Below, piece by piece: positions 51,874 through 62,746 of a DNA stretch of 64,000 nt (position 1 is its first letter; every line of letters starts with the position of its first letter). Source of the stretch: Bryobacter sp. CoA8 C33 (GTDB lineage: Bacteria; Acidobacteriota; Terriglobia; Bryobacterales; Bryobacteraceae); the NCBI GenBank assembly GCA_019931185.1, contig JAINDK010000028.1, forward strand, positions 1 through 64,000, written 5' to 3'. The position numbers and the translations under genes were made by a program. A model generated the notes under the pieces. That model was given only the letters and a program-made list of their open reading frames with translations. It searched no databases and had not been told where the DNA came from.

Positions 51874-53442
51874 ATGAAACAGTCGCGGCTATTTACCGCC
51901 GTATGGGTGGCTTTGTGGGTGGCGCTGGCGGCGCTGGTGGCGCTGCAGTTTTATTGGGCGCGCGAGCTGAGCGTTGCCTATCAGCAGCGGCTGGCGCAGT
52001 CGGTGGCGGAATCGGCGGCAAGCTTCCGCCAGGCATTTGCCGGGGATTTATCGGCGTTGCTCAGCGCGCTGAAGACCGTGCAGCCGGGCCGTGGCGCCGG
52101 CGTACCCGTCTCCCCGCTGCCGTACCGGCTCTACCATGCCGACGCGGCGGCGATCGGCTTGACGGTGCTCAATGCCGCCTCCTCGCGCTTTGTCGCGGCA
52201 GCGTGGCCGGCTTCCTGGCGGCCGCTGGCCGCGGAACTCCTTGATTATGGCGAACAGGCGCGCCTGCTGACAGAGCGGCGCTGGTACAGCCGCCCGTGGT
52301 TGGCCTCGGGCGAGCTTCCGGTGCTATACCGGGCGGCCGATTCCGGGCTGGAGGAGGAAGGCGCCCGCGATGGCGGCTATCTCATCCTGGCTCTTGATGC
52401 GAAGGCGCTGGGGCCGCGGTACTTCGCCGAGGTGCGCGGCCGTAGTTTCGGGGGCTTGCTGCGCGAAACACAAGTGGCGGTGCGGGCGGCGGGCCAGGTG
52501 ATTTATGATTCGAGCCCCGGGGCCCGGCCTGAGCCGGGAGCTTTCGAACTCGACCTGTTCGGCGGCGTGGCGGCGGCGCTGCTGCGCCTTGCCGCGGAGG
52601 AATCAGTCTGGCGGATGGAGGTCAGCCCGCTGGCCGGCACTCTGGATGCCGCGGTCGACACGCTGCGCTACCGCAATCTGGCTACCGGCCTGGGCGTGGC
52701 GCTGGTGCTGTGCGGGGGAATTCTGTTCCTGCTCTTGGCGGCGCGGCGGGCCGAACGGCTGCGTCAGGCCCAAACGAATTTTGTCGCCGCCTTCTCGCAT
52801 GAATTGCGGACGCCGCTGACGGCCATTTCGATGCTCGCCGGCAATTTGCGCGATGGGCTGGTGGTGAGCCCGGAGGAGACGGCGCGCTACGGGGAACTGC
52901 TCTCGGGGCAAAGCGCGCGGCTCGGCCGGCGCATCGAGGATATTCTTGCGTTTGCTGCTGGCCGGGAGCCAAGCCTCACGCTTATGCCGCTCGAGTTGGC
53001 GCCACGCATTGCCGCGGTGCTCGAGCAGGAAGCGCCGCTGCTGGCCACCCTGCGCGTCGAACCGGATTGCGCCGCCGGCCTGCCGCCGGTGCTTGCCGAC
53101 GAGGCCGCCTTGCGCTCGGTGCTGGGTAACTTGATTGTGAACGCGGCGAAGTATGCCGGCGCGGGGCAGCGCGTGCGCATCGAAGCGGAAGCGGGTGGTG
53201 GCGGCATGGTGGAGATCCGGGTGAGCGATTCCGGGCCGGGGCTGCCGGCGGCGGAGCGCAGGCGTTTGTTTGAGCCATTCTTTCGCGGGGAGGCGGCCCG
53301 CCGCGGCCAGGTGCCCGGCTCGGGGCTGGGCCTCTATCTGGTGCGGCAACGGGTGCAAGCCATGGGCGGGACGGTTCGGGTGGATTCCGCGGCTATCGGC
53401 GGTCTATGCTTTAAGATCCGGCTGCGCGCCGCTGTGTCATGA
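51874..53442 (+). CDS. Sensor histidine kinase
   Basis: 522 residues. Two membrane helices (about 8-28 and 270-290) enclose a periplasmic sensor of 240 residues with no known fold. H309 in F-S-H-E-L-R-T-P-L-T is the phosphorylated His, with an N box near 435 (N-L-I-V-N-A-A-K-Y-A), G1 (D-S-G-P-G-L) and G2 (G-S-G-L-G-L-Y-L-V). There is no HAMP domain. The stop overlaps the response regulator start by four bases. Its translation start sits right behind a hairpin. Confidence 0.93.
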   Translation: MKQSRLFTAVWVALWVALAALVALQFYWARELSVAYQQRLAQSVAESAASFRQAFAGDLSALLSALKTVQPGRGAGVPVSPLPYRLYHADAAAIGLTVLNAASSRFVAAAWPASWRPLAAELLDYGEQARLLTERRWYSRPWLASGELPVLYRAADSGLEEEGARDGGYLILALDAKALGPRYFAEVRGRSFGGLLRETQVAVRAAGQVIYDSSPGARPEPGAFELDLFGGVAAALLRLAAEESVWRMEVSPLAGTLDAAVDTLRYRNLATGLGVALVLCGGILFLLLAARRAERLRQAQTNFVAAFSHELRTPLTAISMLAGNLRDGLVVSPEETARYGELLSGQSARLGRRIEDILAFAAGREPSLTLMPLELAPRIAAVLEQEAPLLATLRVEPDCAAGLPPVLADEAALRSVLGNLIVNAAKYAGAGQRVRIEAEAGGGGMVEIRVSDSGPGLPAAERRRLFEPFFRGEAARRGQVPGSGLGLYLVRQRVQAMGGTVRVDSAAIGGLCFKIRLRAAVS

Positions 53443-54140
53443 ACCACATCCTGTTGATCGAGGACGAAGAAGCGATCTCGGCGGCGCTGCGGCTGCGCCT
53501 CGAGCGCTCGGGCTATCGCGTCGATACGGCCGCGAGCGGGCCGGCCGGCTTTGAGCTGGCCCTGACGGGCCGCTACCAGTTGATCCTGCTCGATCTCGAA
53601 CTGCCCGGCAAGGGCGGCCTCGATATCTGCCGCGATCTCCGCCAGCAGGGCATCGCGACGCCCATTCTGATGCTCACCGCGTATGGAGAAACCAGTGACC
53701 GCATCCTGGGGCTCAAGCTCGGCGCCGATGACTACCTCGCCAAGCCCTTTGATCCGGGTGAATTGCTTGCGCGCATGGAGGCGATCCTGCGGCGGGCCGC
53801 GCCAGCCCCGGCCGCCGTGCTCGTCCACGGGCGGCTACGCGTCGATCTGCGCGCGGCTACGGTGCATTGGCGCGGCGCCCTGCTGGCGCTGTCCGCCCGT
53901 GAGTACCAGTTGCTGGCTTACTTTGCCCAGCATCCGGCGCGCGTGGTTTCCCGCGAGGAATTGCTGCGGGAAGTCTGGGGCTATGACGAGTCGGCGCAGA
54001 CCCGCACGATCGATGTGCACATCGGCTGGCTGCGGCAGAAGCTCGAGGACGACCCCCGCAATCCAGCCCTGCTGCTGACGCGCGTCGGCCTTGGCTACTA
54101 CTTCGCTCCGCCGCCGGACGAGCCTGTAAAATCCGCGTAA
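53439..54140 (+). CDS. OmpR/PhoB-family response regulator
   Basis: 233 residues. Receiver domain with acid pocket E8-D9, phosphoacceptor D52 (L-L-D-L-E-L-P-G), T80 and K102, then a winged-helix DNA-binding domain (S-A-R-E-Y-Q-L-L-A-Y and R-T-I-D-V-H-I-G-W-L-R-Q-K-L). It pairs with the kinase in front of it. The likely targets include the following Spy-like and peroxidase genes. Confidence 0.95.
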   Translation: MNHILLIEDEEAISAALRLRLERSGYRVDTAASGPAGFELALTGRYQLILLDLELPGKGGLDICRDLRQQGIATPILMLTAYGETSDRILGLKLGADDYLAKPFDPGELLARMEAILRRAAPAPAAVLVHGRLRVDLRAATVHWRGALLALSAREYQLLAYFAQHPARVVSREELLREVWGYDESAQTRTIDVHIGWLRQKLEDDPRNPALLLTRVGLGYYFAPPPDEPVKSA

Positions 54141-54222
54141 AGAAGCTTTTGCCAAGCCTTTACCAACCTCCTCTCGCTTTCCCGCGTTTCCTTCTTCAAG
54201 ATGAAAGTGAAAGAAGAGGATC

Positions 54223-54654
54223 ATGCTCCCGCGAATACTTACCCTGCTGTTGCTAGCCGTGCTTCTCCCGGCCCAACCCCCGCGCCGCGGACCACGGCCG
54301 GATGAATCCTTTGCCGAGCGCCGCGTTCAGGATCTCACCCGGCGATTTGAGCTGAGCGAGGCCCAACGGCGGCAGACTCTGTTGATTTTCAACGAAGCGG
54401 ACCGCAATGCCGAACCCATCGAAGACCGGATCGAGAAAACGCGGCGCGAATTGCGCGACGCGGTGGTGCGCGGCGCCAGCCCAGCGGAGATCGATCCGAT
54501 CGCCGCGCGGCTCGGCGAGGCCATCGGGCAACTCGAGGCCGTCGACGCCCGTGCCCAAGCTGCTTTTTATTCCACGCTGACCGACAAACAGCGCGAACTC
54601 ATTCCCCGGTCGACGCGTGGCCATCGTGGCCCGCCTCGCCCCCCCCGTGACTGA
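54223..54654 (+). CDS. Spy/CpxP-like periplasmic protein
   Basis: 143 residues: signal peptide (1-18), then a helical protein with R-F-E-L-S-E-A-Q-R-R-Q-T-L and later A-F-Y-S-T-L-T-D-K-Q-R-E-L, the layout of LTxxQ-motif proteins such as Spy, CpxP and CnrX-type sensors. Ends in a basic Pro-rich tail. Position behind a two-component system supports an envelope-stress or metal-sensing role. The 82 bases before it probably carry its promoter. Confidence 0.7.
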   Translation: MLPRILTLLLLAVLLPAQPPRRGPRPDESFAERRVQDLTRRFELSEAQRRQTLLIFNEADRNAEPIEDRIEKTRRELRDAVVRGASPAEIDPIAARLGEAIGQLEAVDARAQAAFYSTLTDKQRELIPRSTRGHRGPPRPPRD

Positions 54655-54671
54655 TGATCCGGAGAACTCTC

Positions 54672-56456
54672 ATGAAACGATTTCCTCTTTTATTGCTCGC
54701 CTTGCCCTTGCTGGGGCAGCCCAGTCTGCGCACGGTGCCCGTGCCGCGGCCGGCGAATCTCGAAGGCGTGGTGCGCGACAGCGCCGCGCTCACGGTTCTC
54801 GGTAAGGCGCTGTTCTGGGACAGGCAAGCCGGCTCGGATGGCAGCACGGCCTGCGCCACCTGCCACTTCCATGCCGGGGCCGATCACCGTTCCCAACACC
54901 AATACACGAATCCGCACTTCCGCTACGACGCCAACGCGATTCTCACCGCCGAAGACTTTCCTTTTCGCCTGCTGAGCGACCCGGCGAACAATGGCTCAGC
55001 GGTGCGGCGGGAGAACACGGGGGTTTATGGCTCGGCCGGTGTTTTTCGGCGCCAGAGCACCGGTGCGGCCGCCGATGGCGGCGCCGAGCAAGGCTATGAC
55101 CTCGCTGATTCGCAAACGCCCGTCTGGGAAGGACTCAATGTGCGTCAGATTACGGCGCGCAATGCGCCTTCGGTCATCAATGCCGTCTTCAATGCGCGCA
55201 ACTTCTGGGACGGGCGGGCGCGCAACGTGTTCAACGGTCTCAATCCCTTTGCCAGCACCGACCCGCGGGGGCAAATCATGGCCTGGCGCAACGGGCAATT
55301 CGTTGCGGTGGCAATCCATTCGGCGAATGCCAGCTTGGCTTCGCAGGCCGTTGGCCCTCCGCTCAACACGATGGAGATGGCCTATGGCGGCGTGACCTGG
55401 CCGGAGTTGGGGCGCCGGCTGCTGCGTGCCGCGCCGCTGGCGGGCCAGCGCGTGGCGGCCGATGACAGCGTCCTCGGCGGCTATGCCAACCCGAAGGGCA
55501 AAGGGCTCCAGCCGGGGCTCAACTACCAGGCGCTTGTCGCCGCCGCCTTTGCCCCGGAGCTGTGGCAGTCTCCGTCCTCGTATCAGGGCTACTCGCAAGC
55601 GGAATGGAACTTTTCACTCTTCTTCGGCCTCGCGATTGAGAGATATCAGGCTACGCTCGTCTCCGACGACAGCCCCTTTGACCGTTTCGCCGCCGGTGAC
55701 GCCCGCGCCTTGACGCCACAACAGTTGGCCGGCCTGAATCTGTTTCGCGGCCGCGCGGAATGCAATACCTGCCATGCCGGGCCGGAGTTTACGGCGGCGA
55801 CAGTGGCCGGGCTGAGCATCAATGGCCCAGGTGGGCCCGGTGGGCCGGGGGGACCAGGTCCGGGCCGGGGCGGGCTTCCCAATCAGGGGCCTGATACCGG
55901 TTTCTTCCGCACCGCGGTTGCCCCGATCGACCGCGATCCGGGCCTGGGAGGCGTCGATGATTTCGGCCAGCCGTTGACGAACAACCCGAATCTGCGCGGC
56001 GCCTTCAAAACGCCTGGCCTGCGCAACGTCGAATTCACTGGCCCGTACTTCCACAACGGCAGCCAGGCGACGCTCGAACAAGTGGTGGAGTTCTACAACC
56101 GCGGCGGCGATTATCCGGCCGGCGGCGTGGGGCCCAACATCCGGCGCCTCAACCTCAATGCCACCGAGCGGGCCGCGCTGGTTGCCTTTATGCTGGCCTT
56201 GAGTGACGACCGGGTCCGCTACCAGCGGGCGCCCTTTGATCACCCGGAGCTTTGCGTGCCGAATGGCCACAAGCCGGCCGTGCAAACGCAGGATGCGCAA
56301 TTCACCTTGAGCGCCGATGAGAACTGGGCGCTGGTACCGGCCACGGGCCGCGGCGGGGCCAGTGTGCCGCTGCAAAGCTTCCTCGAGATGTTGAATGGCG
56401 TGGGCAATGACGGCTCCCGGGCGCACTCGCTGGCCGAAGCCTGTCCGGCGCCTTAA
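54672..56456 (+). CDS. Di-haem cytochrome c peroxidase-family protein (MauG-like)
   Basis: 594 residues from the ATG at 54672 (GGAG eight bases upstream; the ATG at 54654 adds six residues). Signal peptide, then haem sites C61-A-T-C64-H65 and C364-N-T-C367-H368, about 300 residues apart, as in bacterial peroxidases. A Gly/Pro-rich run follows the second haem. K-T-P-G-L-R-N-V and G-P-Y-F-H-N-G-S are family motifs near the distal side. It is longer than CcpA (about 330 residues) and resembles larger acidobacterial relatives. Periplasmic; substrate unknown. Confidence 0.85.
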   Translation: MKRFPLLLLALPLLGQPSLRTVPVPRPANLEGVVRDSAALTVLGKALFWDRQAGSDGSTACATCHFHAGADHRSQHQYTNPHFRYDANAILTAEDFPFRLLSDPANNGSAVRRENTGVYGSAGVFRRQSTGAAADGGAEQGYDLADSQTPVWEGLNVRQITARNAPSVINAVFNARNFWDGRARNVFNGLNPFASTDPRGQIMAWRNGQFVAVAIHSANASLASQAVGPPLNTMEMAYGGVTWPELGRRLLRAAPLAGQRVAADDSVLGGYANPKGKGLQPGLNYQALVAAAFAPELWQSPSSYQGYSQAEWNFSLFFGLAIERYQATLVSDDSPFDRFAAGDARALTPQQLAGLNLFRGRAECNTCHAGPEFTAATVAGLSINGPGGPGGPGGPGPGRGGLPNQGPDTGFFRTAVAPIDRDPGLGGVDDFGQPLTNNPNLRGAFKTPGLRNVEFTGPYFHNGSQATLEQVVEFYNRGGDYPAGGVGPNIRRLNLNATERAALVAFMLALSDDRVRYQRAPFDHPELCVPNGHKPAVQTQDAQFTLSADENWALVPATGRGGASVPLQSFLEMLNGVGNDGSRAHSLAEACPAP

Positions 56457-58154: not shown

Positions 58155-58565
58155 ATGTTTCAGCCCGGCCGGTTGCGTTTTCCGCTATCGCGCCTGGGGT
58201 GTCTCTGCGCCCTGCTGGCCGGGCTCTTATGGGCTCCTCTCGCGCCGGCTCTGGCGGCGCATGAAGCGGGCATGGCCTGTTGCCGCAACGGCAAGAAGCA
58301 CGCCTGCTGCTCCCGTTTGGCCAAGAAGAGGATGGGCCGTGCTCATTCGGCGGCGATCACGGCGCTGGCCACTTGCGGCAAGAGTTGTTGCCAGAAAAGT
58401 TCTCTGCCCTCGGCGGACTCCGCGCAACTGATTGCCCCACCCGCCCCGGGCCGGCTTCTGGTCTTGTCTCAGCCCCTGTTGATTGCCGGCACCGGCCGCG
58501 GCGTCGCCACTCCCTTGCCACAGCCGCTGTTTCAGCGCCCTCCCCCCGCTCTTTTCGTTCTCTAG
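58155..58565 (+). CDS. Small Cys-rich exported protein
   Basis: 136 residues with a signal peptide ending near L-A-A-H-E-A. The mature part has A-C-C-R, H-A-C-C-S, and T-C-G-K-S-C-C-Q-K, which makes it a likely metal binder, and a Pro-rich end. It precedes a TonB receptor by 38 bases. Small exported CC-rich or His-rich proteins often stand before copper or other metal receptors, which is why I link it to metal handling. Not a recognised named family. Confidence 0.6.
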   Translation: MFQPGRLRFPLSRLGCLCALLAGLLWAPLAPALAAHEAGMACCRNGKKHACCSRLAKKRMGRAHSAAITALATCGKSCCQKSSLPSADSAQLIAPPAPGRLLVLSQPLLIAGTGRGVATPLPQPLFQRPPPALFVL

Positions 58566-58603
58566 TTTCCCCCCAAAAAACTTTTGCCCGAAAAGAGGTT
58601 TCC

Positions 58604-61489
58604 ATGCGGCTTCTCCCTTGCCGGCTATTTTTCTTTTTCCTGTGTCTGGGCGCGGCCCGGCCGCAAAATATCGGTGGCTCTCTCACGGTGGAACTGTGTG
58701 ACAGCCAGGGCTTGCCCCTCGAAGGCACACCCGTCGCAGTGGTTGACCAGCGCTCGGGGTTTCGCCAGACGGCTCCGACCGGGCGCGAGGGCCGGGTCCA
58801 TTTCTCGAGTCTTCCTCCTTCCGAGTATGTTGCGAGCGCGGCCCGAAAGGGTTTCCTGCCGGGGCAGTCGCCGCCGGTTCGAGTCGAGATTGGCCAAGCG
58901 CCCTCGGTGCGTCTGACTCTGGCGCCGGAGGGGGGCTCGAGTACGATCGAGGTGCAGGCCGAGGTGCAGGTGCTGCGCATGGATACACCCGAGCGCGGGT
59001 CAACCTACGGCGCCGCATTGATGAATGACCTGCCCATGGCCGGCGGCGGCACGGGGCGCAACTTTCGCACTCAGGCTTACCTCACCCCCGGAGTGGCCGT
59101 CTCCCCCGGCGCCCACCGGCCCTTTGCCGTCTCCGGCGCTCGCAATCGCAACAACAATTATCTGGTCGACAGCAACGACTTCAATGAAGCCGAGGGCGGG
59201 CTGCTGATGGGCCGAGGCGCCTCCGAACAGTTGATCTCAACGGAGGCTATCGACGGCATGCAGGTGCTGACCCACAACTTCAAGGCCGAGTATGGGCGGC
59301 AGAACGGTTCGATCGTTTCCCTCATCACCAAGCGTGGCGGCAACGAGTTTCATGGCTTGCTCTTTCATTACTTACGCAACGAGCAACTCGATGGCCGTAA
59401 TACCTTTGATCTCGTGCGCCCACCCTTGCGCGGCAATCAATTCGGCTTCAATTTCGGCGGACCTCTGCGGCGCAACCGTACCTTTTTCTTCGTGAATTCT
59501 GAGTGGAACCGCCGCCGCACGACAAGCCCGGCTACGATCCAGACGCTGACGCCGTCCCAGCGCGCGCTTGCTCATCCCGCAGTTGCCCCGCTTGTGGCGC
59601 TTTATCCGGAGCCGAATGTCGCGGGTACAAATCTGCACCGCGCTAATCCGCGCTCGGGGGTTGATCAGTCGAGCCAGGTCTTCCGCATCGACCATGACCT
59701 CAAGGCCAATCAGCGCCTGTTTTGGCGCACGACGCGGCTTGCCGCGCGCAACGATGGGGTCAGCGGCGCCTCCTTCGCCCGCTTCGCCTCGCGTGTCGGC
59801 CCCGCCGGCCACTCCCTCCAGCACATCTGGACCCTCTCGCCCAATCTCCTCAACGAAGCCCGGCTCAACTTCACCCGCTTCGATCTGAACGACGACTTTC
59901 TCGACCCTGTGCAGTTGGGCAATCCCGCGCTCAACGGCCTGCTTGGCTCGCTTGCCGTAAATGGCCTTTCCTCGCTCGGTCATTTTGCCTTCATGGCTCG
60001 TAAGACCGCGCAGAATACCTTTCAATGGGCCGACGACCTCAGTTGGAACCGCGGAGCGCACACCTTTAAATTTGGCGCCAATCTGCGGCGGCTGCAGTTG
60101 AACAGCGGCACTTTTGCTCCGGCCTTTACCGGCGTGCTGCGCTTCAATTCGGTTAGCGATTTTCTCGCGGCCCGCCCTGCCTCCTACTCGCGCAATCTTG
60201 GCAATCCCTATATCGGGCTGCGCGCCAGCGAGATCAATTTCTATGCCCAGGACGACTGGCGGCTGCACTCGCGGCTGACCCTCAATCTCGGTCTGCGCTA
60301 TGAGTTCAACTCCGTTCCCCGTGAAGTCAATGGATTGATTGAGGAGCGCTACCGCTTCGCGCCCGATTACAACAACTTCGCTCCCCGCCTCGGCCTCGCC
60401 TGGCAGTTGGATCGCGCCCGCCGCACGGTGCTGCGCACGGGCTATGGACTTTATTTCAATGTCATCGAGTTGAGCTTTGTCGGCCTGACACGGTTCAATC
60501 CGCCGCGAATAAGGAATTTCGCCGCCGCGAATCCCGTCTTCCCCGATCTGCTGGCCACGGCTCAATCCGCTTTACCGACGGGCTTGGTGATTCCGCAGCC
60601 GGATGCGCGGCAGCCCTACTCGCAGCACCTCAATTTCGCCATCGAGCGCCAACTGCCCGGGCCAGAGACCCTGCTGAGTGTCGCCTACACGGGCACGCTC
60701 GCCCGCAAGCTGCCCCGTGCCTCGCGCCCCAACGGCGGCGACGGCCTCGCGCAGGCGCTGCGGCCCGACCCCCTCACGGGTGTGGTCAATCGTCTGGAAA
60801 CAGCGGCGAATTCCTCCTATCACTCCCTGCAACTCAGCCTCGAATCACGCTTCCGCCACACCCTCCTGCGCACTGCCTACACCTGGTCGCGGTTTCTCGA
60901 TGAGACCAGCGACTTCCCCAGCTCGAATACCGGAATCGACCGCGGCATCCTTGCTCTCGATGAGAACCGCTGGTCGCTCAACCGTGGCCTCTCCGACTTT
61001 CATCTCGGCCATGTGCTGACCACGGCGCTCAGCCGGGATCTGCCCTGGGGCTTCCGTCTCAATGGCATCCTCACGCTCCAGTCCAGCCGCCCGTTCACGC
61101 TTTACTCGGGCTCCGATTCTCCCATCGGCACAAACAATAACCGGCTCATGGCGGTGGCTGGCGCTCTGTTCTTCACCCCGTCGCAGCGGCGCGCCATCAC
61201 AGTGGACCCGGCGCTGCGCGCGCTACTCACCCCGAGCCGCGGCGTCTTCGGAACGAGGGGCCGCAACACCGCCTTCGGCGACGGGCTGACCAGCCTGAGC
61301 CTCGGCCTGCACAAACAGTTTGATCTGGGCGATCGCGGCCGGCTCGAGTTCCGCGCCGAAGCCTTCAACCTTGCCAATACCGTCAATTACAACCTTCCGG
61401 ACGCAGTCCTGACCAGCCCGAATTTTGGGCAGGTCTTGACGGCCGGCGACCCGCGGCAAATTCAACTCGCTCTGCGATTCAGCTTTTAA
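58604..61489 (+). CDS. Oar-like TonB-dependent receptor of the Cys-rich cluster
   Basis: 961 residues from the ATG at 58604 (AAGAGG before it; an open frame upstream overlaps the Cys-rich gene). Signal peptide, CarboxypepD-regulatory fold (G-S-L-T-V-E-L-C-D-S-Q-G-L-P-L-E-G) at 25-100, a plug with F-A-V-S-G-A-R-N-R-N-N-N-Y-L-V-D, F-K-A-E-Y-G-R-Q-N-G-S and a barrel ending F-S-F. Ligand not readable. The sialidase-like gene starts 12 bases after its stop, so the three genes probably form an operon. Confidence 0.88.
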   Translation: MRLLPCRLFFFFLCLGAARPQNIGGSLTVELCDSQGLPLEGTPVAVVDQRSGFRQTAPTGREGRVHFSSLPPSEYVASAARKGFLPGQSPPVRVEIGQAPSVRLTLAPEGGSSTIEVQAEVQVLRMDTPERGSTYGAALMNDLPMAGGGTGRNFRTQAYLTPGVAVSPGAHRPFAVSGARNRNNNYLVDSNDFNEAEGGLLMGRGASEQLISTEAIDGMQVLTHNFKAEYGRQNGSIVSLITKRGGNEFHGLLFHYLRNEQLDGRNTFDLVRPPLRGNQFGFNFGGPLRRNRTFFFVNSEWNRRRTTSPATIQTLTPSQRALAHPAVAPLVALYPEPNVAGTNLHRANPRSGVDQSSQVFRIDHDLKANQRLFWRTTRLAARNDGVSGASFARFASRVGPAGHSLQHIWTLSPNLLNEARLNFTRFDLNDDFLDPVQLGNPALNGLLGSLAVNGLSSLGHFAFMARKTAQNTFQWADDLSWNRGAHTFKFGANLRRLQLNSGTFAPAFTGVLRFNSVSDFLAARPASYSRNLGNPYIGLRASEINFYAQDDWRLHSRLTLNLGLRYEFNSVPREVNGLIEERYRFAPDYNNFAPRLGLAWQLDRARRTVLRTGYGLYFNVIELSFVGLTRFNPPRIRNFAAANPVFPDLLATAQSALPTGLVIPQPDARQPYSQHLNFAIERQLPGPETLLSVAYTGTLARKLPRASRPNGGDGLAQALRPDPLTGVVNRLETAANSSYHSLQLSLESRFRHTLLRTAYTWSRFLDETSDFPSSNTGIDRGILALDENRWSLNRGLSDFHLGHVLTTALSRDLPWGFRLNGILTLQSSRPFTLYSGSDSPIGTNNNRLMAVAGALFFTPSQRRAITVDPALRALLTPSRGVFGTRGRNTAFGDGLTSLSLGLHKQFDLGDRGRLEFRAEAFNLANTVNYNLPDAVLTSPNFGQVLTAGDPRQIQLALRFSF

Positions 61490-61501
61490 GGAGTTTCCAT
61501 C

Positions 61502-62746
61502 ATGCGTGCATCCTCCCTATTCCTTGCTACGCTGATCACGGCGGCCACCTTGCCGGTGGCCGTCGTGTCTTTTGAAAAAACGCCACAGCCGCTTTCCGCC
61601 GGCCCGGCCAAGAGCCCGAAAATCCTCTCCCGCCGCGCCCAGGGCCTGATGGCGATCTATACGGCGCCGGGGGCCAGCGGCGCTGATCTCCTCTATTTGT
61701 CCTCGGCCGATCTGGGCGACAGTTGGTCGGCGCCGCAGCGGGTGAATTCCGTGCCCGGCGAGGTCTCCGATCATGGGGAGAATTCCCCCCAGTTCTTCCT
61801 CTCTCCCGATGAAATGTCGATCTATGCGTTCTGGAACGCGCGCGATGCGAAGTCGCCCGGGGCCAGCCACGTGCGCTTCTCTCGCGCCGGCGCGATGATG
61901 ACCACTTGGTCTCCCGCCCAGACCCTCGACGACGATCCGCTACCGAACTCGCACGGCTTCCAGACCGCCGCCGTGGGCCCGGACGGCACGCTCTATGCCG
62001 CCTGGCTCGATGGCCGCGACAAGGACAAGGCCAAGACGCGCGACTACACGGCTGGCGCCGCCGCGCTCTATCTCACTACATCGCGCGATGGCGGCCGCAC
62101 CTGGTCGGCCAACCAGCGCATTGCCACCGATGTCTGCCCCTGTTGCCGGCCGGCTTTCGCCTTCACGGGCAACCTGGCTCTGCTTGCCTGGCGCGGCGTC
62201 GATGACGGAGACCGGCGCGACATCTACTCGGCGCTTTCGGTCGATCCGGGCCGCAATTGGCAGGCGCCGCAACTGGTTCATCGCGACAACTGGAAGATCA
62301 AAGGCTGCCCGCATGTGGGCCCGAGCCTGGCCACCGCCGGTGGCCGCATCCATGTCGCCTGGTTCAGCGAGGCCGCCGGCAAGCCCGGTATCTTCCTGTC
62401 CTCCACCGCCGACGGCCGCAACTTCTCCCCCAAGCGGTCGCTGTCGGAGGGCACGGTCGACCCGACCCACCCGGTGCTGGCCAGCAATGAAGGCCGGCTG
62501 GCCGCCGCCTTCCAGGCCCGGGACGCGCGGGCCAAGGATTCCTGGGGCAAGATGAGCATCTACTACCGCGAGGTTTTGCCCTCTGGCGCTTTGTCGGCTC
62601 TGGTGAAGGCGGGAGAGCCGGCCGAGGGCGCCGTCACTTATCCCTCCCTCACGCTGGGCATGTCCGGCCGCACTTTCCTCGGCTGGACAGAGACGCGCGG
62701 GGAGGCTGGGCCGAAGGCGCTTCTGCTGCGCGGCCGGCCGCGCTAG
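61502..62746 (+). CDS. Sialidase-fold (BNR) exported protein with CxCC and GCPH motifs
   Basis: 414 residues with a signal peptide. BNR-type repeats (S-x-D-x-G-x-x-W: S-A-D-L-G-D-S-W, S-R-D-G-G-R-T-W) place it in the six-bladed propeller fold of sialidases. D-V-C-P-C-C-R-P near 217 and K-G-C-P-H-V-G-P near 265 are motifs I have seen in a subgroup of these proteins, and they suggest a bound metal or disulfide. The catalytic Arg triad of true sialidases is not evident. It lies in a likely operon with a Cys-rich protein and a TonB receptor. Confidence 0.7.
   Translation: MRASSLFLATLITAATLPVAVVSFEKTPQPLSAGPAKSPKILSRRAQGLMAIYTAPGASGADLLYLSSADLGDSWSAPQRVNSVPGEVSDHGENSPQFFLSPDEMSIYAFWNARDAKSPGASHVRFSRAGAMMTTWSPAQTLDDDPLPNSHGFQTAAVGPDGTLYAAWLDGRDKDKAKTRDYTAGAAALYLTTSRDGGRTWSANQRIATDVCPCCRPAFAFTGNLALLAWRGVDDGDRRDIYSALSVDPGRNWQAPQLVHRDNWKIKGCPHVGPSLATAGGRIHVAWFSEAAGKPGIFLSSTADGRNFSPKRSLSEGTVDPTHPVLASNEGRLAAAFQARDARAKDSWGKMSIYYREVLPSGALSALVKAGEPAEGAVTYPSLTLGMSGRTFLGWTETRGEAGPKALLLRGRPR

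Follow-up and report, generated by a model that had tools for sequence, protein, structure and literature searches.

A likely copper-responsive uptake operon in Bryobacter headed by a candidate arrest-peptide uORF with a C-terminal RPPP

What might a small cysteine-rich exported protein, a TonB-dependent receptor, and a sialidase-like propeller be doing together in one tight row of genes? The question arises from the window, by which we mean the whole stretch of DNA analyzed here (64,000 nucleotides from Bryobacter sp. CoA8 C33, contig JAINDK010000028.1), in which three genes follow one another on the forward strand with gaps of 38 and 12 nt. The head open reading frame (ORF; 58155..58565, 136 amino acids) encodes a Sec signal peptide, called by eye from the sequence, followed by a Cys cluster and a C-terminal RPPP, and it has no family match in Pfam or NCBIfam. 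Behind it, at 58604..61489 (+), lies the gene for a 961-residue Oar-type TonB-dependent outer-membrane receptor that matches the Pfam families OMP_b-brl_4 (PF25183; 483 bits), CarboxypepD_reg (PF13620), and TonB_dep_Rec (PF00593); the NCBIfam copper-receptor model of the OprC kind (TIGR01778) gave no call, and such NCBIfam hits as there were came from generic models or models of other receptors, none of which reached its cut-off. The third gene (61502..62746, +) encodes a 414-residue exported beta-propeller of sialidase fold with a CxCC and a GCPH motif and a Pfam match to BNR_2 (47 bits). A promoter scan of the region gave a chance-level result. The coordinates and the close spacing are exactly those given by an earlier sequence-only reading, which took the trio for a unit for uptake or maturation of a metal such as copper, in which the small protein captures the metal, the receptor imports it, and the propeller handles it in the periplasm. 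Outer-membrane copper acquisition is poorly understood, and copper-sensing upstream ORFs (uORFs) have experimental proof in just a few proteobacteria. We consider it likely that the three genes form a copper-responsive uptake operon headed by a CruR/CutF-like arrest-peptide uORF and controlled by a Shine-Dalgarno (SD) hairpin switch.

The gene set is conserved elsewhere. A search with the propeller returned orthologues at 65 to 75% identity and a second tier at 37 to 57%, and each of the 22 loci examined (propeller at least 35% identical, upstream sequence included) had the small ORF, with an adjacent TonB receptor in 20 of them. The order uORF-receptor-propeller accounted for 16 of these loci (the window included), uORF-propeller-receptor for 4, and uORF-propeller for 2, and the set was found again in at least 20 other genomes. 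A profile of the uORF family matched in 131 of 200 Bryobacteraceae genomes. Of the 150 uORF-family places listed, at least 63 have a listed propeller less than 6 kb downstream of them, and the distance between the two among the matches listed is mostly 2.9 to 3.1 kb, which corresponds to one receptor gene between them. The sequence-only reading had named a failure of the three genes to occur together elsewhere as fatal to its proposal; they do occur together, and the recurrence of the uORF-receptor-propeller order across loci answers that objection and establishes the three-gene unit as real.

The most informative feature of the small protein, absent from the earlier reading, is the RPPP near its C terminus (R128-P129-P130-P131; codons at 58536..58547, +). 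In an alignment of the window protein with 23 homologues (n = 24), the only invariant residues are M1, C42, C43, C51, C74, R128, P130, and P131, and identity is otherwise low (20 to 40%). The C terminus reads FQRPPP followed by a short run of further residues; a sister group has QKRGPP there instead. Genomes differ in the codons they use for RPPP (CGC CCT CCC CCC, CGT CCA CCT CCC, CGG CCT CCT CCA, or AGA CCT CCA CCT), so selection appears to act at the peptide level. An R[P/G/A]PP lies near the C terminus of 100 of 100 distinct family members found with the profile (RPPP in 45, RGPP in 54, RAPP in 1), a figure that is partly circular because the profile ORFs were chosen by the motif and the profile itself holds it; at the ends of unrelated background frames, the motif occurs in 0.35%. 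Independently of the profile, an RPPP/RGPP-type ORF was found at every locus located via the propeller. The last Cys and the Arg also stand at a nearly fixed distance, 46 to 50 residues in 34 of the 45 RPPP members and 48 to 55 in 40 of the 54 RGPP members, the shorter spacings being due to an extra Cys near the C terminus. In the window protein, the Cys cluster (C42 C43 .. H49 .. C51 C52 .. C74 .. C78 C79; pattern CC/CC/C/CC), which contains the pairs pointed out in the earlier reading, lies 48 residues from the Arg.

Being exported, rich in Cys, and a constant companion of the unit, the small protein could be a structural carrier that binds copper, or a periplasmic protein of the metallothionein type, and pass copper on to the receptor or the propeller. 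We regard this as quite improbable: RxPP is as invariant as the Cys, without an obvious role in metal carriage, and it is rare at other frame ends (see above), identity is low outside the invariant residues, and tandem copies occur ahead of one receptor. Moreover, the closest described cases, CruR and CutF, are regulators, and CutF is quickly degraded after export. The capture role assigned to the small protein by the sequence-only reading is probably wrong, given that only four Cys and the C-terminal RxPP are conserved in an ORF that comes first in the operon, that the spacing between them is near that of CruR and CutF, and that an anti-SD sequence follows directly after RPPP. As judged from these sequence features, the small Cys-rich protein is probably a regulatory arrest-peptide uORF rather than a metal carrier.

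The mechanism class to which such a uORF would belong is already known. In B. pertussis, the operon led by CruR has three genes, one of them for a TonB receptor, and is repressed by copper; when a nascent CXXC senses copper, the arrest at an RAPP lying 45 residues further on is relieved, and termination by Rho follows (PMC9426467). The receptor of that operon, CrtA/BfrG, imports chelated copper (PMC12914433). In R. capsulatus, CutF controls translation of CutO via an SD-shielding stem-loop, and its CxxxC motif lies 45 residues from a proline-rich end (PMC9973294). RGPP and RAPP are arrest motifs (PMC12992588, PMC10951233), uORFs bearing them occur upstream of TonB and copper genes throughout Gram-negatives (PMC12992588), and when RAP occupies the P site and Pro the A site, RAPP prevents the peptide bond from forming (PMC10951233).

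The head ORF shares with CruR and CutF both its position (the first ORF, ahead of Cu genes or a TonB receptor and on their strand) and its build (a short exported protein with a conserved Cys motif and a C-terminal proline-rich motif at near-fixed spacing). As in the B. pertussis CruR-CrtA/BfrG-PepSY_TM operon, an exported Cys uORF with a C-terminal RxPP heads a TonB-dependent receptor in a set of three genes, and the Cys-to-RxPP spacing is 45 residues in CruR and about 48 here. The two differ in that CruR has RAPP and one CXXC, whereas our protein has RPPP, several Cys pairs, and no DUF2946 call; our operon, for its part, has a short gap with an SD hairpin, an Oar-type receptor, and a CxCC propeller in place of PepSY_TM. 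As for CutF (cutFOG), the common elements are an exported Cu-motif peptide with a proline-rich C terminus and a stem-loop shielding the downstream SD. CutF, however, switches on a multicopper oxidase in the presence of Cu, while the target here is a receptor and the uORF tail itself contains the anti-SD arm. With a receptor rather than a multicopper oxidase as the target, a response opposite to that of CutF would be expected; since copper raises expression via CutF and lowers it via CruR, analogy by itself does not fix the direction.

Some observations count against this proposal. Pfam DUF2946 (PF11162, the CruR/CutF family) did not match the window protein and gave weak matches (best E, 0.025) to just 4 of 24 relatives, and any DUF2946 protein was found in 2 of the 61 genomes carrying the uORF family. 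Of the XPPP motifs tested in E. coli, RPPP stalled ribosomes most strongly (PMC4176338), which favors the proposal; unlike RAPP and RGPP, it is rescued there by EF-P, which weighs against it. RAPP-like arrest peptides are characterized by a C-terminal R(A/G)PP, which the window protein, with its RPPP, does not have; the RGPP relatives in Bryobacteraceae and other members of their bacterial class do look like peptides of the RAPP/RGPP kind. An RPPP class goes without mention in the main text of the RAPP/RGPP survey, which extracted RAPP and RGPP proteins (PMC12992588).

How might a stall at RPPP affect the receptor gene? Nucleotides 58549-58557 (CTCTTTTCG, +), in the tail of the uORF, are predicted to pair with 58589-58597 (CGAAAAGAG, +), which overlap the SD of the receptor gene (AAAGAGG). 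With the folded stretch running from the last Pro codon of the uORF to the receptor start, the hairpin has an energy of -12.9 kcal/mol (z = -3.15), and 1 of 200 shuffles was as good. The tail/SD hairpin was found in all 8 loci folded (the window and seven related loci; z from -2.05 to -4.76), and the same fold is built from other sequences in L007 (CCCCTTTCTTTC/GAAAGAAAGGGG) and L005 (TTCCGTTC/GAACGGAA), where L numbers denote loci. Among six Bryobacter-clade loci, matched tail-SD pairs had a mean of -13.4 kcal/mol versus -10.4 kcal/mol for permuted pairs (P = 0.007, all 720 permutations), and the same comparison over 14 loci gave a P of 0.0015. This was a permutation test on fixed windows; column-wise covariation was dropped, since two rows of the MAFFT alignment were shifted by a column. 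One short-tail genus (...RPPPVA*; L047-L050, L052, L059) has no anti-SD arm after RPPP, so the hairpin does not occur throughout the family. The tail in these loci is two residues long, yet their proline codons (CCTCCT) are themselves anti-SD-like, and they may use a different hairpin.

In the mechanism we propose, the head ORF would be a short exported arrest peptide serving as a cis-acting copper sensor. When copper is scarce, the ribosome would stall at the C-terminal R-P-P-P, with P130 in the P site (58542-58544) and the last Pro codon in the A site (58545-58547). Going by typical toeprint distances, a ribosome in this position is expected to reach about 58557 and to cover the anti-SD arm, leaving the receptor SD unpaired, and the freed SD would permit translation of the receptor and then of the propeller behind it. 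Copper would bind the nascent Cys cluster, freshly out of the exit tunnel 48 residues before the Arg, and relieve the stall; the ribosome would finish, the hairpin would close, and the operon would be shut down. We infer the stalling at RPPP, the metal binding, the identity of the metal as copper, the direction of regulation, and the function of the propeller. As to the products, it is reasonable to suppose that the receptor imports a copper complex and that the propeller, with its four-Cys site, handles Cu(I) in the periplasm.

The same uORF sensor could instead act through Rho-dependent termination, as B. pertussis CruR does (PMC9426467), in which case the hairpin would be incidental; the C-rich tail of the uORF and the existence of members without the hairpin would both suit such control. 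Yet the uORF-receptor gap is short here (27 to 54 nt in most loci and 38 nt in the window, versus 162 nt in B. pertussis), and the SD pairing co-varies between species, so we consider Rho control unlikely and retain the SD-hairpin switch as our reading.

Arrest-type uORFs also occur as tandem pairs (RGPP-RPPP, RGPP-RGPP, or RPPP-RPPP), with a single receptor or copper gene behind them. There were 13 such pairs among 84 locus-strands (L098, L101, L105, L128, L134, L135, L136, L154-L158, and L160), and two sensors in a row could provide AND logic or two-signal sensing.

Copper, the metal suggested in the sequence-only reading, is also our best guess, and the support for it comes from the neighborhoods of propeller homologues and of uORF relatives. 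The survey of CxCC propeller neighborhoods that the earlier reading had proposed was run on annotated plasmids of Roseobacteraceae and Bacteroidota: copper genes lie beside the propeller homologue in 9 of the 10 loci read, a count that covers CxCC propellers only and is drawn from loci that are not fully independent (several are close relatives). The neighbors include genes for multicopper oxidase, copper-binding protein, plastocyanin, CopC/CopD, Cu P-type ATPase, and RND efflux. A propeller among plasmid resistance genes fits copper handling, not uptake specifically. On one Sulfitobacter plasmid (L173), the CxCC propeller sits between multicopper-oxidase fragments and a mercury-resistance operon.

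Relatives of the uORF point the same way. One heads an MbnP/MbnH operon in L099 (MbnP, 281 bits against a cut-off of 140; MbnH, 456 against 363), others head genes that are MbnP-like by sequence in L109 and L124, and still others head CcmH and CusF genes in L104. In a second acidobacterial family of the class, uORF relatives head receptors in most loci read, including a uORF-headed receptor with a propeller in L155. Another locus of that family (L156) has tandem uORFs, a receptor, a 485-residue gene product, and a CopC-like protein clustered together. A search of the window's own genome for MbnP gave no match, and control searches were equally silent. With copper as the signal deduced from gene neighborhoods, the sensor might in principle respond to a different metal, such as zinc or iron, or to thiol/redox state, such as disulphide stress, the more so as some family-headed genes are CcmH-like or without a clear role and distant propellers adjoin TlpA-type thioredoxins. 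The MbnP/MbnH, CusF, and CopC-like neighbors and the copper clusters around the propeller in other phyla argue otherwise, and we rate such a signal as distinctly unlikely.

If copper is the metal, what would the propeller contribute? Its only four Cys lie in D-V-C-P-C-C-R (residues 210 to 216) and K-G-C-P-H (residues 267 to 271), motifs that had been picked out in the earlier reading and that now stand beyond chance, since C212, C214, C215, and C269 do not vary across an alignment of 29 homologues that spans Acidobacteriota, Bacteroidota, and Chromatiales and reaches down to about 20% identity. The codons of C212-P-C214-C215 are at 62135..62146 (+) and those of C269-P270-H271 at 62306..62314 (+); P270 is invariant as well, and some distant members carry V or M in place of H271. 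CxCC and [GA]CP are found in each of the 10 homologues read from plasmids. An AlphaFold2 model (pLDDT 89.3, pTM 0.89) gave sialidases and related lyases as the closest Foldseek matches, which places the protein in the sialidase propeller fold; a sequence search of the PDB gave nothing significant. The CxCC and C269 are in loops 55 residues apart, about one blade, and by this spacing the four Cys could meet on one face. Bacteroidota and Chromatiales relatives adjoin TlpA-like thioredoxins, as expected if the Cys are kept reduced for Cu(I). In one Chromatiales locus (L009:5815-9680), receptor, propeller, and TlpA-like thioredoxin genes stand back to back; a CruR-like ORF was looked for before this receptor-propeller pair and in the Bacteroidota propeller loci and was not found.

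Oar-type receptors are plentiful in Acidobacteriota and are often believed to import polymers, and an Oar-type receptor next to an enzyme of sialidase fold could belong to a glycan utilization unit. The propeller resembles the GH33-like sialidases (NanA, Neu2) in its fold but not in its conserved residues: of the sialidase catalytic set (Arg triad, Tyr/Glu pair, and Asp), the only invariant residues of these types are R231, R239, and D240, and no Tyr or Glu that could form the nucleophile pair is invariant among the aligned homologues, which argues against sialidase chemistry and bears out the earlier statement that clear sialidase catalysis is lacking. Together with the four invariant Cys, the copper neighborhoods, and a window without glycan genes between or directly beside the three genes, this makes glycan utilization very improbable, and the copper-responsive uptake operon remains our reading. 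In the archaeon Nitrososphaera viennensis, a putative sialidase-family gene is drawn with DsbD among the clusters upregulated under copper limitation (PMC7785015), a pairing of a sialidase-like gene with a thiol reductase gene that would point to copper as well; membership of that protein in the CxCC family is a lead only.

The earlier statement that no described system has this exact set holds for the propeller as the third gene, as far as the partly covered literature that we searched goes, and does not hold for the first two genes, which match cruR-crtA/bfrG in kind. In that same partial coverage, the acidobacterial RPPP family, the SD hairpin, the tandem sensors, and the copper-linked four-Cys propeller were undescribed. 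We put at about even the chance that Acidobacteriota hold a large undescribed class of RPPP/RGPP copper-sensing arrest peptides, often in tandem and with the coding tail as a possible anti-SD arm that unmasks translation of an importer, and that the CxCC propeller is a new four-Cys copper family present in several phyla. To the known copper-sensing uORFs, this would add a dominant soil phylum, an RPPP stall motif class, a simple SD-hairpin switch, and tandem sensor pairs. It would also tie to copper a family that is spread across phyla and whose sole annotation at present is "sialidase family protein," a label that probably misleads the glycan annotation of genomes and plasmids.

Just upstream, at 51874-56456, consecutive genes that may make up a second metal-related cluster encode a histidine kinase, an OmpR-type response regulator, a small protein resembling Metal_resist/LTXXQ, and a di-heme peroxidase resembling MauG/MbnH. 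Membership of these genes in the unit was rejected: an antisense ABC-F gene intervenes, and they are outside the conserved unit. A MauG gene lies upstream of the unit in L004 also. In the window's own genome, the sole clear uORF of the family is the window's copy, and a second, divergent CxCC propeller is encoded on contig C67 (L060:8894-9937).
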